This document shows, one piece after another, positions 4,316-33,993 of a stretch of DNA of 64,000 bases (position 1 is the stretch's first letter; every line of letters begins with the position of its first letter). Source of the stretch: Suttonella sp. R2A3. Its GTDB lineage: Bacteria > Pseudomonadota > Gammaproteobacteria > Cardiobacteriales > Cardiobacteriaceae. Location of the stretch: contig NZ_CP090975.1 of the NCBI RefSeq assembly GCF_021513215.1, forward strand, positions 1,109,501 to 1,173,500, in the 5' to 3' direction. The notes below the pieces were generated by a model. That model searched no databases. It worked only from the letters and a program-made list of their open reading frames with translations, and was not told the DNA's origin. The position numbers and the translations under genes are program-made.

Positions 4316-4615
4316 TTAGGCCTGCTCAGACAACAGCGCTTCCATATCCACGCTCTTATCCAGGCTCACATAGGCCTTTTTATAATCACTACGACGGCCG
4401 ACGCGGGCGCCAAAACGCTTGGTTTTGCCTTTCACATTCACCGTACGTACGGCGATCACATCGACTTCCATAAGCTGCTCAACAGCTTCTTTGATTTCTT
4501 GCTTGGTTGCACGACGATCGACCTTGAAGACGAGCTGTTTGTCTTCAGCTGCCAATGAAGATTTCTCAGTAACGTGCGGACCTTTAATCACTTGTAACAA
4601 ACGTTCTTGTTTCAT
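4316..4615 (-). CDS. rplW: 50S ribosomal protein L23
   Basis: A 99-residue protein at the tunnel exit where trigger factor and SRP dock. I choose the ATG at 4615 ([19 protein letters not shown]). It aligns with the family and forms an ATGA overlap with the rplD stop, so the two are probably translationally coupled. An upstream in-frame codon at 4624 would add three residues with no support. Confidence 0.96.
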
Positions 4616-5220
4616 GATAACCACTCGTTGATTTTTTCAATGGCCGCTTTGTCGACGGCAACTTTCTCATGACGCAGTAACAAAGCAGGATTCACTGCTT
4701 GTACATCAACCACACTGATGCGTGGCAGGTTACGCGTCGCCAGGTAGGCGTTATCATTAGCGCTTTCAGTAACCACTAACACATCCTGACCTAAATTATT
4801 TTTCTCTGCATAAGCGGCAAATTCTTTGGTCTTGTGAGAATCAAGCTCAAAAGACTCGAGCACCAGCAAACGCTCTTGGCGCGCCAACTCAGAGAAGATA
4901 CTACGCATAGCCGCGCGATACATTTTCTTATTAACTTTTTGGCTGTAATCACGTGGTTTAGCTGCAAAGGTCACCCCACCGCTACGCCAGATTGGCGAAC
5001 GAATGGTCCCTGCGCGTGCACGCCCTGTGCCTTTCTGGCGCCAAGGTTTTGCACCACCACCAGAAACTTCACTACGGGTTTTCTGTGCTTTAGTACCTGA
5101 GCGACCACCGGCCAAATAAGCGGTAACCACTTGGTGAATCAACGCCTCGTTAAACGCCACACCGAATACTTCATCGGCAACGGTTACCGAACCGGACGCA
5201 TTACTCATTTGAATATCCAT
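4612..5220 (-). CDS. rplD: 50S ribosomal protein L4
   Basis: 202 residues. L4 lines the exit tunnel, and in enteric bacteria it also represses its own operon through the S10 leader. The conserved loop [19 protein letters not shown] is present (about residues 58-76). Two adjacent ATGs exist, and 5220 gives the better spacer to AGGAGG and the better family alignment. It lies 9 bases after rplC. The terminator-like hairpins before rplC are a plausible target for L4 control here (inference). Confidence 0.96.
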
Positions 5221-5229
5221 CATGCCTCC

Positions 5230-5869
5230 TTATGCCTTTACCGACGGACGAATCATCACAAATCCGCCCTTCGCGCCGGGTACTGCGCCTTTGATCAAAA
5301 TCAAGTTACGCTCGCTATCAACGCGGGCAACTTCGAGATTTTGTACGCTGCACATTTTGTTACCCATCTGCCCGGACATTTTTTTGCCCTTGAATACACG
5401 ACCTGGTGTCTGGTTTTGACCAATTGAACCAGGAACGCGGTGAGAGAGTGAGTTACCGTGTGTTTTACGCTGACCACGGAAGTTGTGACGCTTGATTGTA
5501 CCGGCAAAACCTTTACCAATACTGCGCGCACGCACGTCCACTTTTTTGACCTTCAGCAAACACATCTAACGCCACTGCTTTACCCACTTCATAATCGGCA
5601 AGCTCTTCACTGGTGAGACGGAATTCTTTGACCAACAAACCTGCGGCGACATTTGCTTTAGCAAAATGCCCTGCTTGAGGCTTGGTTGTACGATTTGCTT
5701 TACGTTCCCCAACAGAAACCTGTACAGCATCATAGCCATCGGTTTCCTGGGTTTTAATTTGTGAAATTACATTTGGCTTCACCTCGATCACCGTTACGGC
5801 GCTGGCGTTGCCATCTTCGTCAAAAATTCGGGTCATACCGACTTTCTGACCCACAAGGCCCATTGTCAT
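5230..5869 (-). CDS. rplC: 50S ribosomal protein L3, frameshifted as given
   Basis: L3 is an essential early-assembly protein of the large subunit. The gene is in two frames. The first (5869 down to 5513) starts [20 protein letters not shown] and is correct through EGQK, then reads nine foreign residues to a stop. The correct frame resumes with [14 protein letters not shown] and ends PSVKA at 5230. The break is a run of six A (plus-strand T6, 5542-5547). Five A would give one continuous product of about 212 residues, the normal L3 length. It is therefore a sequencing indel, a real mutation, or a site rescued by slippage. L3 is essential, so a plain null is unlikely. Confidence 0.9.
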
Positions 5870-5889
5870 ATTGTTATCCTCATTTTTAC

Positions 5890-5925
5890 AAAAAAGACGA
5901 GAGGAGGGTGGGTGCCCTCTTCGGC
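5890..5925 (-). terminator. second terminator-like hairpin before rplC
   Basis: On the minus strand CGAAGAGG can pair with CCTCTCG around a short C-rich loop (one bulged A), followed within three bases by T6 at 5890-5895. It lies 21 bases upstream of the rplC start. It could be a terminator or the second arm of an attenuator with the hairpin at 5943-5968. Confidence 0.45.
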
Positions 5926-5938
5926 TTCACGAGCATCC

Positions 5939-5968
5939 AAAAAAGCGGAAAGTTTTCACTTTCCGCTT
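5939..5968 (-). terminator. intrinsic terminator/attenuator between rpsJ and rplC
   Basis: A perfect 10-bp stem, AAGCGGAAAG (plus 5943-5952) with CTTTCCGCTT (5959-5968), and a 6-base loop. In the transcribed direction it is followed by a T tract (plus A at 5939-5944). It starts 26 bases after the rpsJ stop. Essential genes lie downstream, so it must be leaky or regulated. Confidence 0.75.
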
Positions 5969-5994
5969 CCGAGATACACGAAAGGTGCGCGATT

Positions 5995-6309
5995 TTACTG
6001 CAATTCAATCTTGACGTCAACCCCTGCCGCCAAATCCAGTTTCATCAACGCATCGACGGTTTTGTCGGTTGGATCAACGATGTCCATAATGCGCTTGTGT
6101 GTGCGCATTTCATATTGATCACGCGCGTCTTTATTAACGTGCGGGGAGATCAAAACCGTGTACTTTTCGATTTTTACTGGCAAAGGTACCGGGCCCTTAA
6201 CTTGGGCACCAGCACGTTTCGCCGTTTCAACGATCTGCTTGGCTGACGCATCAATCAAGCGGTGATCGTAAGATTTCAAACGAATGCGGATTTTCTGTGT
6301 ACTAGCCAT
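5995..6309 (-). CDS. rpsJ: 30S ribosomal protein S10 / NusE
   Basis: 104 residues, starting [20 protein letters not shown]. Besides its place in the small-subunit head, S10 (NusE) links to NusG/NusB in antitermination. It lies 11 bases after tufA, so it belongs to the str transcript, while a strong hairpin with a T tract separates it from rplC. The protein is complete and of normal length. Confidence 0.97.
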
Positions 6310-6320
6310 AGTGTTATCCG

Positions 6321-7511
6321 TTATTCAATAATGCTGGCAACAACGCCGGCGCCAACGGTACGACCACCTTCACGAATCGCAAAGCGTAAGCCTTCGTCCA
6401 TCGCGATTGGGTTGATCAGGTTAACTTCCATTTTGATGTTATCGCCTGGCATAACCATTTCAACGCCTTCTGGAAGGATACATTCGCCAGTTACGTCCGT
6501 GGTACGGAAGTAAAACTGTGGGCGGTAGCCTTTGAAGAATGGGGTGTGACGGCCACCTTCGTCTTTAGACAGAATGTAGACTTCTGCTTCAAACTTGGTG
6601 TGTGGGGTAATGGTGCCTGGCTTAGCCAAGACTTGACCACGTTCAACGTCTTCACGCTTGGTACCACGTAACAGAACGCCTACGTTGTCCCCTGCTTGAC
6701 CTTGGTCGAGCAATTTACGGAACATTTCAACACCGGTACAGGTGGTTTTGGTGGTTGGGCGGATACCGACGATTTCGATTTCTTCACCGACTTTAACCAC
6801 ACCGCGCTCAATACGACCAGTTACAACAGTACCACGGCCTGAGATTGAGAAGACGTCTTCGATTGGCATCAAGAATGGCTTGTCGATGTCACGCTCTGGC
6901 TCTGGGATGTATGAGTCTAAAGCATCAACGAGTTTCTCAATTGATGGAACACCAATGTCTGAGGTGTCGCCTTCGAGTGCTTTTAATGCTGAACCAATGA
7001 TGATTGGTGTGTCATCACCTGGGAAGTCGTATTCGTTTAACAGGTCACGAACTTCCATTTCAACGAGTTCTAAGAGTTCTGCGTCGTCTACCATGTCGGC
7101 TTTGTTTAAGTAAACAACGATGTTAGGCACGCCTACCTGACGTGATAACAGGATGTGTTCACGAGTCTGTGGCATTGGGCCATCAGCGGCTGAACAAACC
7201 AGGATAGCGCCGTCCATCTGCGCCGCACCAGTGATCATGTTTTTAACATAGTCAGCGTGTCCTGGGCAGTCTACGTGTGCGTAGTGACGAGCTTCTGATT
7301 CATATTCAACGTGGGCAGTTGAAATGGTAATCCCACGAGCACGTTCTTCTGGTGCACCGTCAATCTGGTCGTATGCTGAGAATGAGCCACCAAAACGATC
7401 CGCACCAATCTTGGTTAATGCTGCTGTTAATGTGGTTTTACCGTGGTCAACGTGACCAATTGTGCCGACGTTAACGTGCGGCTTGGTGCGTTCAAATTTT
7501 TCCTTAGACAT
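6321..7511 (-). CDS. tufA: elongation factor Tu, copy A
   Basis: A 396-residue GTPase delivering aminoacyl-tRNA to the ribosome. G1 is GHVDHGKTT (about residues 18-26), G3 DCPGH, G4 NKAD, followed by the two beta-barrel domains. It follows fusA by 18 bases. Coding DNA compared line by line with the second copy at 22704-23894 looks identical except in the last two sense codons (ATT GAA here, ATC GAG there), while flanks diverge at once. That is the signature of gene conversion between duplicate tuf genes. Confidence 0.98.
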
Positions 7512-33963: not shown

Positions 33964-33993
33964 AAGGGGCTATCATCGATAGCCCCTTTTTTT
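33964..33993 (+). terminator. intrinsic terminator after doeC
   Basis: A perfect 11-bp stem, AAGGGGCTATC (33964-33974) with GATAGCCCCTT (33978-33988), a 3-base loop and a T7 run ending at 33993. The opposite strand ends its own gene at 34015, so the hairpin may serve both sides. Confidence 0.9.

Follow-up and report, generated by a model that had tools for sequence, protein, structure and literature searches.

The locus examined here raises the question of where the gene run that starts with L3 and L4 is controlled, and which genes share that control, when S10 is joined to the str genes. The window, i.e., the whole 64-kb stretch of DNA analyzed, belongs to a genome of 1.99 Mb (G000) whose nearest named relatives are Cardiobacteriaceae. 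Its minus strand carries rpoB-rpoC-rpsL-rpsG-fusA-tufA, followed after 11 nt by rpsJ and, beyond an intergenic gap, by rplC (Table 1). The short tufA-rpsJ distance agrees with an earlier note on this DNA, which had described rpsJ as joined to the str genes and had placed two terminator-like hairpins between rpsJ and rplC. From 5′ to 3′, the gap comprises the rpsJ stop codon TAA with AAT, CGCGCACCTTTCG..., hairpin 1 with a T6 tract, a short linker, hairpin 2 with a second T6 tract, GAGGA, and the ATG of rplC. As a whole it folded 4.4 standard deviations better than its shuffles (z = −4.4).

Table 1 Features of the tufA–rplD region, with coordinates in the window.
Feature	Position	Strand	Basis or remark
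tufA (EF-Tu)	6321-7511	minus	ORF; EF-Tu by Pfam; rpsJ follows after 11 nt
rpsJ (S10/NusE), last gene upstream of the leader	5995-6309	minus	ORF; Pfam Ribosomal_S10
Promoter-like element for rplC onward	5992-6020	minus	10/12 consensus positions; kept in the family
rpsJ-rplC gap, 125 nt	5870-5994	minus	
Hairpin 1, intrinsic-terminator-like stem and T6	5939-5971	minus	between promoter-like element and motif A
Hairpin 2 (motif A) and T6	5890-5926	minus	R1 match, order-wide conservation, covariation
Shine-Dalgarno GAGGA of rplC	5877-5881	minus	sequence
rplC (L3), first downstream gene, two frames	5230-5869	minus	ORFs 5513-5869 and 5230-5565
rplD (L4), favored ligand candidate	4612-5223	minus	ORF; Pfam Ribosomal_L4, 3e-71

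The rplC gene was split into two frames of 118 and 111 amino acids that overlap at 5513-5565 of the minus strand, with the break near an A run, and Pfam Ribosomal_L3 matched the second piece. The frame is intact in relatives, and the break is most likely a homopolymer sequencing error; otherwise an essential gene would contain a slippage site.

A promoter-like element was found at the end of rpsJ, with a −35 hexamer TTGACG (6020-6015), a 17-nt spacing, and a −10 hexamer TAAAAT (5997-5992) made up of the rpsJ stop codon and AAT; the predicted transcription start lies near 5986. The pattern TTGAC/TTGAT-17-TA(A/G)(A/G)AT was present in 12/12 Cardiobacteriaceae loci, plus L030 of another family, and in all 12 the −10 consisted of the rpsJ stop codon followed by AAT or GAT. 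It was not evident in the Wohlfahrtiimonadaceae-like genomes compared, a family name that is inferred, partly from kinship. The −35 lies within codons (Val-Asp-Val), so its conservation is partly coding, and the RAT that follows the stop codon encodes nothing. We infer from these sequences that rplC and the genes after it are transcribed from TTGACG-17-TAAAAT, and they probably have their own promoter and a structured leader.

Hairpin 1, AAGCGGAAAGT-GAAA-ACTTTCCGCTT (5968-5943), forms 11 perfect pairs, extendable by G·U, with a predicted energy of −18.4 kcal/mol, and its T6 tract spans 5944-5939. A GC-rich stem leading directly into a U tract is thus clearly present. Only two perfect terminators of at least 8 bp occurred on both strands of the window, hairpin 1 being one of them, and 0.03 sites like it were expected per window from 60 dinucleotide shuffles of the whole 64 kb. 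The second, AAGGGGCTATC-ATC-GATAGCCCCTT with T5, lies on the plus strand at 33964-33988. Hairpin 1 was absent from the listing of a generic consensus terminator scan, probably because its stem extends into the T tract. It is a single-copy element, and a reading as a repeated element (an uptake-sequence pair or REP) was rejected because the genome holds only this one copy. Among relatives it was found only in the genus-mate L002, with compensatory stem changes and a T tract shortened to T4, and not in the rpsJ-rplC gap of other genera of the family. Hairpin 1 is probably an additional, genus-specific terminator. With a strong terminator so near the start of an essential operon, polymerase would need a way through, which speaks against a separate transcription unit starting just upstream of it.

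Two other roles may be considered for such a stem. Hairpin 1 may be a 5′-terminal structure that protects the mRNA or guides its processing by RNase E or RNase III, rather than a terminator, since in many gammaproteobacteria the predicted start is followed within a few nucleotides by a GC stem, which in some of them lacks a T tract. The stem in the window, however, carries T6, lies about 15 nt inside the transcript, and is missing in other genera of the family, and we consider this role very improbable. Alternatively, both hairpins may be ordinary leaky terminators, ligand-free, that end the str transcript and lower read-through, with rplC onward fed by the promoter together with the remaining read-through. 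The nearly perfect terminator form of hairpin 1, its single copy, and its restriction to the genus are in keeping with this, as are the T5-6 tracts that follow the second hairpin in Cardiobacteriaceae. The structure and conservation of hairpin 2 bear on the same point.

Hairpin 2 is real, as the earlier note had proposed, and in the window it is the weaker of the two (−9.8 kcal/mol). Its upper stem GAGGG/CCCTC pairs 5919-5915 with 5908-5904 and is followed by a 3′ CTC bulge, and its lower stem pairs 5926-5921 with 5900-5895 with one C·U mismatch; the stem and U tract of a terminator are present with this bulge and mismatch. The T6 spans 5895-5890, and 5939 and 5890, which had been proposed as stop positions, are where the two T tracts end. 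In relatives the hairpin reaches −16.8 and −19.1 kcal/mol. We refer to its conserved form as motif A: a lower stem closed by an invariant A-U pair, an internal loop opposing one 5′ nucleotide (A, U, or C) to a 3′ CUC, an upper stem GARGG/CCYUC, a loop of at least 5 nt containing CC, and an invariant UCCUCU in the 3′ strand. In every case, 23-37 nt separate its end from the rplC ATG. A T5-6 tract follows it in Cardiobacteriaceae and L030, is less clear in the Wohlfahrtiimonadaceae-like genomes, and is absent from the Competibacter types. As judged from the aligned sequences, what is conserved is a bulged hairpin beside the rplC start and not terminator character. The invariant internal loop and UCCUCU go beyond the needs of a terminator, and the U tract is missing in the Competibacter types, which together point to a predicted binding site for a protein or RNA. 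Unpaired CUC, UCCUCU, and the CC of the loop are kept across two orders, even without a U tract, and conservation of internal-loop sequence at that remove is not a feature of terminators. With this evidence against it, the reading of both hairpins as leaky terminators seems fairly unlikely.

Hairpin 2 was seen in all rpsJ-rplC gaps of relatives that were compared. A model of motif A built from 15 relatives, excluding the window sequence (R1), matched the window at 5888-5930 with 39.8 bits and gave one strong match directly after rpsJ in 28/32 genomes of the order; the four others are exactly the drafts in which rpsJ too was not found, so that the element was present in 28/28. It also occurs in the same gap of the Competibacteraceae-type L033, L040, L043, L045, L046, and L050, plus L086. 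In class-wide samples, R1 and a further model, R3 (which includes one chance row, L008:2032-2057), recovered essentially the order plus one genome. R1 matched some Competibacteraceae-type genomes weakly and missed L033 and L046, and since both models detect this type weakly, the breadth of motif A given here is a lower bound.

The pairing of motif A was 95% standard over 26 distinct rows, and seven pairs showed double changes. There were 31 double-change cells, compared with 7.8 in shuffles (0/500), and controls in which the structure was slid along the alignment reached at most 71% pairing. The alignment had been fitted to the structure; the unfitted alignment A3 gave the same fold with four double-changed pairs. 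A hand-trimmed alignment (A2, loops) was left out of the results, and alignment A4 has a single typing error, which affects a flank column of L065 and not the stem. Covariation of both stems, which the earlier note had named as a check, holds for hairpin 2; for hairpin 1 there are the compensatory changes in L002. No Rfam 15 family matched the window or the rpsJ-rplC gap, and motif A is not in Rfam 15. With its conserved, covarying structure and constant association with a ribosomal protein operon, motif A is a probable ribosomal protein leader of a kind outside Rfam, conserved in the order and beyond. In the part of Eckert and Weinberg (2020, PMC7247131) available to us, the r-leaders described likewise have conserved, covarying structures 5′ of ribosomal protein operons and putative ligands; by contrast, the L4 leader described there is from Archaeoglobi, and rplC is named only in that connection.

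The position of motif A suggests a further way in which it may act. It may be a translational operator, in which the Shine-Dalgarno sequence pairs with either CCUU of the 5′ leader or CCUC of motif A and the start site is thereby hidden, binding of a protein sets the balance, and no termination takes place. The constant distance to the rplC ATG is consistent with this, and the U tracts are not universal. In the predicted folds, the partner of the Shine-Dalgarno sequence is the 3′ strand of motif A in the case of the window (P 0.87), and in ten relatives (L002, L004, L005, L006, L008, L009, L011, L012, L040, and L086) it is CCUU at the 5′ end of the leader. These are single-sequence predictions, however, and any AGG can find a CCU. 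The partners also do not covary: L003, L005, and L006 have AAGG as the Shine-Dalgarno sequence with motif A unchanged, and pairing between the two as a conserved feature was not supported by covariation. A purely translational operator is unlikely on this evidence. Within the preferred reading, in which motif A is the leader of a separate rplC operon, termination would fit the U tracts of Cardiobacteriaceae, and sequestration of the Shine-Dalgarno sequence is an equally open mode by the predicted folds.

In E. coli, L4 acts through its leader at the level of transcription as well as of translation (PMC10931766), and hairpins D and E have been described in this leader (PMC10578931). In E. coli, rpsJ is preceded by gspB and not tufA, and the leader before rpsJ contains CCCAU-CAAUCGUA-AUGGG, which corresponds by place to the attenuator hairpin E. 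The chance of this loop with a 5-pair stem in the shuffled leader was 3e-5; with E. coli among the 14 seeds of the corresponding model (R2), the fair measure is this composition test and not the model score. A hairpin with the same 8-nt loop as in E. coli, CAAUCGNA, and a covarying stem was found in the rpsJ-rplC gap of other gammaproteobacteria, in 35/123 distinct gaps, at a median of 25 nt before the rplC ATG. Its stem showed 96.9% pairs and 74 double-change cells, compared with 20 in shuffles (0/500), and in a class-wide sample the best matches of R2 fell in the rpsJ-rplC gap. Wherever tuf was seen in these loci, it lay 5-110 nt before rpsJ, and no such element occurred before rpsJ in 132 stretches of 150 nt where tuf precedes rpsJ. 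The carriers are L052, L056, L065, L071, L076, L100-L102, L104, L106, L107, L109, L115-L132, L134, L136, and L139; L100, L101, L102, and L104 have two copies about 48 nt apart. No Rfam family was found for the E. coli S10 leader or its relatives, and the element before rplC is apparently not in Rfam. In some Chromatiaceae (L058, L059, L067, L074, L087, L089, and similar genomes), rpsJ and rplC are separated by about 10 nt with neither hairpin, and the leader there seems to have been lost or never present.

Upstream of the hairpin-E-like element, a hairpin of at least 8 bp was present in 27/33 gaps (5.8 in shuffles) and a T-tract hairpin in 10/33 (0.6 in shuffles); the sequence immediately before is often TATAAT or similar to it. 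The order of promoter, hairpin, conserved second hairpin, ribosome-binding site, and rplC therefore recurs, and the window shows the same layout with motif A as the second hairpin. Both elements share the gap, the distance to rplC, and the joined tufA-rpsJ arrangement, and the hairpin-E-like loci, like the window, have their own TATAAT-like element and upstream GC hairpin. The two differ in hairpin sequence and loop, and no genome was seen with both. Compared with motif A, the E. coli S10 leader likewise controls the run starting with rplC-rplD, has its own promoter, encodes L4 downstream, and places a hairpin just upstream of the ribosome-binding site followed by a U-rich tract. It differs in preceding rpsJ, so that S10 is included, whereas the motif A leader follows rpsJ; in addition, the CAAUCGNA loop is missing from motif A, which has no sequence likeness to hairpin E. 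R2 found no match in G000. The proposal of an attenuator between rpsJ and rplC accordingly stands as far as a regulatory-looking leader with a promoter-like element and a covarying hairpin is concerned, and fails for the attenuator sequence of E. coli.

L4 is the favored ligand on the grounds of operon content and the parallel in other gammaproteobacteria, and this analogy makes control of the L4 type in the rpsJ-rplC gap plausible. We take the L4 site of 23S rRNA to be E. coli positions 295-343. At this presumed site, the sequence of the genome's own 23S rRNA is GGCCGAAGAGGGUGAAAGCCCC. Motif A of the window has 11 nt, GCCGAAGAGGG, in common with it, and no better match exists in the rRNA region of G000 (p 0.0025 vs shuffles). 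In relatives, G005, G401, and G004 gave p values of 0.02-0.06 and five others gave nothing. Mimicry of 23S rRNA by motif A is thus suggestive in the sequence of this genome and not general. Local alignment found no resemblance between E. coli hairpin E and the L4 site of 23S rRNA, and scanning E. coli 23S rRNA with covariance models yielded nothing above noise. The 23S rRNA model itself matched G000 in pieces (C1:1520010-1522642 and two other, more truncated copies), with breaks near model positions 470-566 and 2044/2045 that may be insertions, masked stretches, or assembly faults.

L3, the product of rplC, is another candidate ligand: its gene directly adjoins motif A, the ligand of an r-leader is often taken to be a protein encoded nearby, and motif A is not homologous in sequence to the target of L4 in E. 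coli. Against L3, the regulator of the same operon in E. coli is L4 (PMC10931766), other gammaproteobacteria have an E. coli-like hairpin at this position, and the 11-nt identity is with the presumed L4 site. L3 is thus an improbable ligand.

With moderate confidence, we favor the reading that rplC onward is a separate unit with its own promoter, a motif A leader, and feedback most likely by L4, leaving S10 and EF-Tu outside this control. The gap would then be the start of a transcription unit rplC-rplD-rplW-rplB onward. Transcription would begin near 5986, driven by a promoter embedded in the end of the rpsJ coding sequence and its stop codon, and would give a leader of about 117 nt. Motif A would lie in this leader immediately upstream of the ribosome-binding site of rplC, and an additional terminator hairpin right behind the start would be peculiar to this genus. 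The regulating protein, most likely L4, would bind motif A when in excess over free 23S rRNA and lower expression of the operon, either because more transcripts then terminate at the U tract behind motif A or because the ribosome-binding site is held closed. The upstream str transcript would supply S10 (NusE) and EF-Tu, which would escape motif A control. The suggestion that S10/NusE is separated from L3-L4 would fit the position of the leader and the parallel in other gammaproteobacteria.

Contiguous tuf-rpsJ-rplC is common in bacterial str-S10 clusters. The earlier note had supposed that the attenuator moved behind rpsJ, and here the change probably ran the opposite way. Among the gammaproteobacteria sampled, it is common for tuf-rpsJ-rplC to be contiguous with a leader in front of rplC, and this, together with the E. 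coli-type hairpin before rplC in many lineages, suggests that the leader before rplC is old. On these sequence comparisons, the joined tufA-rpsJ layout is probably ancestral and the E. coli layout derived. According to a 2024 review (PMC10931766), E. coli-like L4 control is known from enterics, Haemophilus, and Vibrio but not from Pseudomonas, and a late origin is assumed for it. The present comparison argues for an L4 element that is older than this, and in a different place, part of which may be in the earlier literature. A broader reading is offered only tentatively: at least two unrelated RNA devices, the E. coli S10-leader hairpin in other gammaproteobacteria and motif A in Cardiobacteriales and Competibacteraceae, would stand between rpsJ and rplC, both responsive to L4 and with S10/NusE outside, the E. 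coli arrangement being derived and the L4 element much older than a late origin within gammaproteobacteria would allow.

The S10 leader is the textbook case of ribosomal protein feedback, and if its hairpin and an unrelated second one stand before rplC in many other gammaproteobacteria, this control would be older and would cover a different set of genes, leaving out S10/NusE, an antitermination factor. Two independent RNAs for perhaps one protein would then allow a direct test of the origin and replacement of r-leaders. In the organism studied here, the L3-L4 gene run is probably controlled separately from S10, by a leader placed differently from that through which E. coli controls it.
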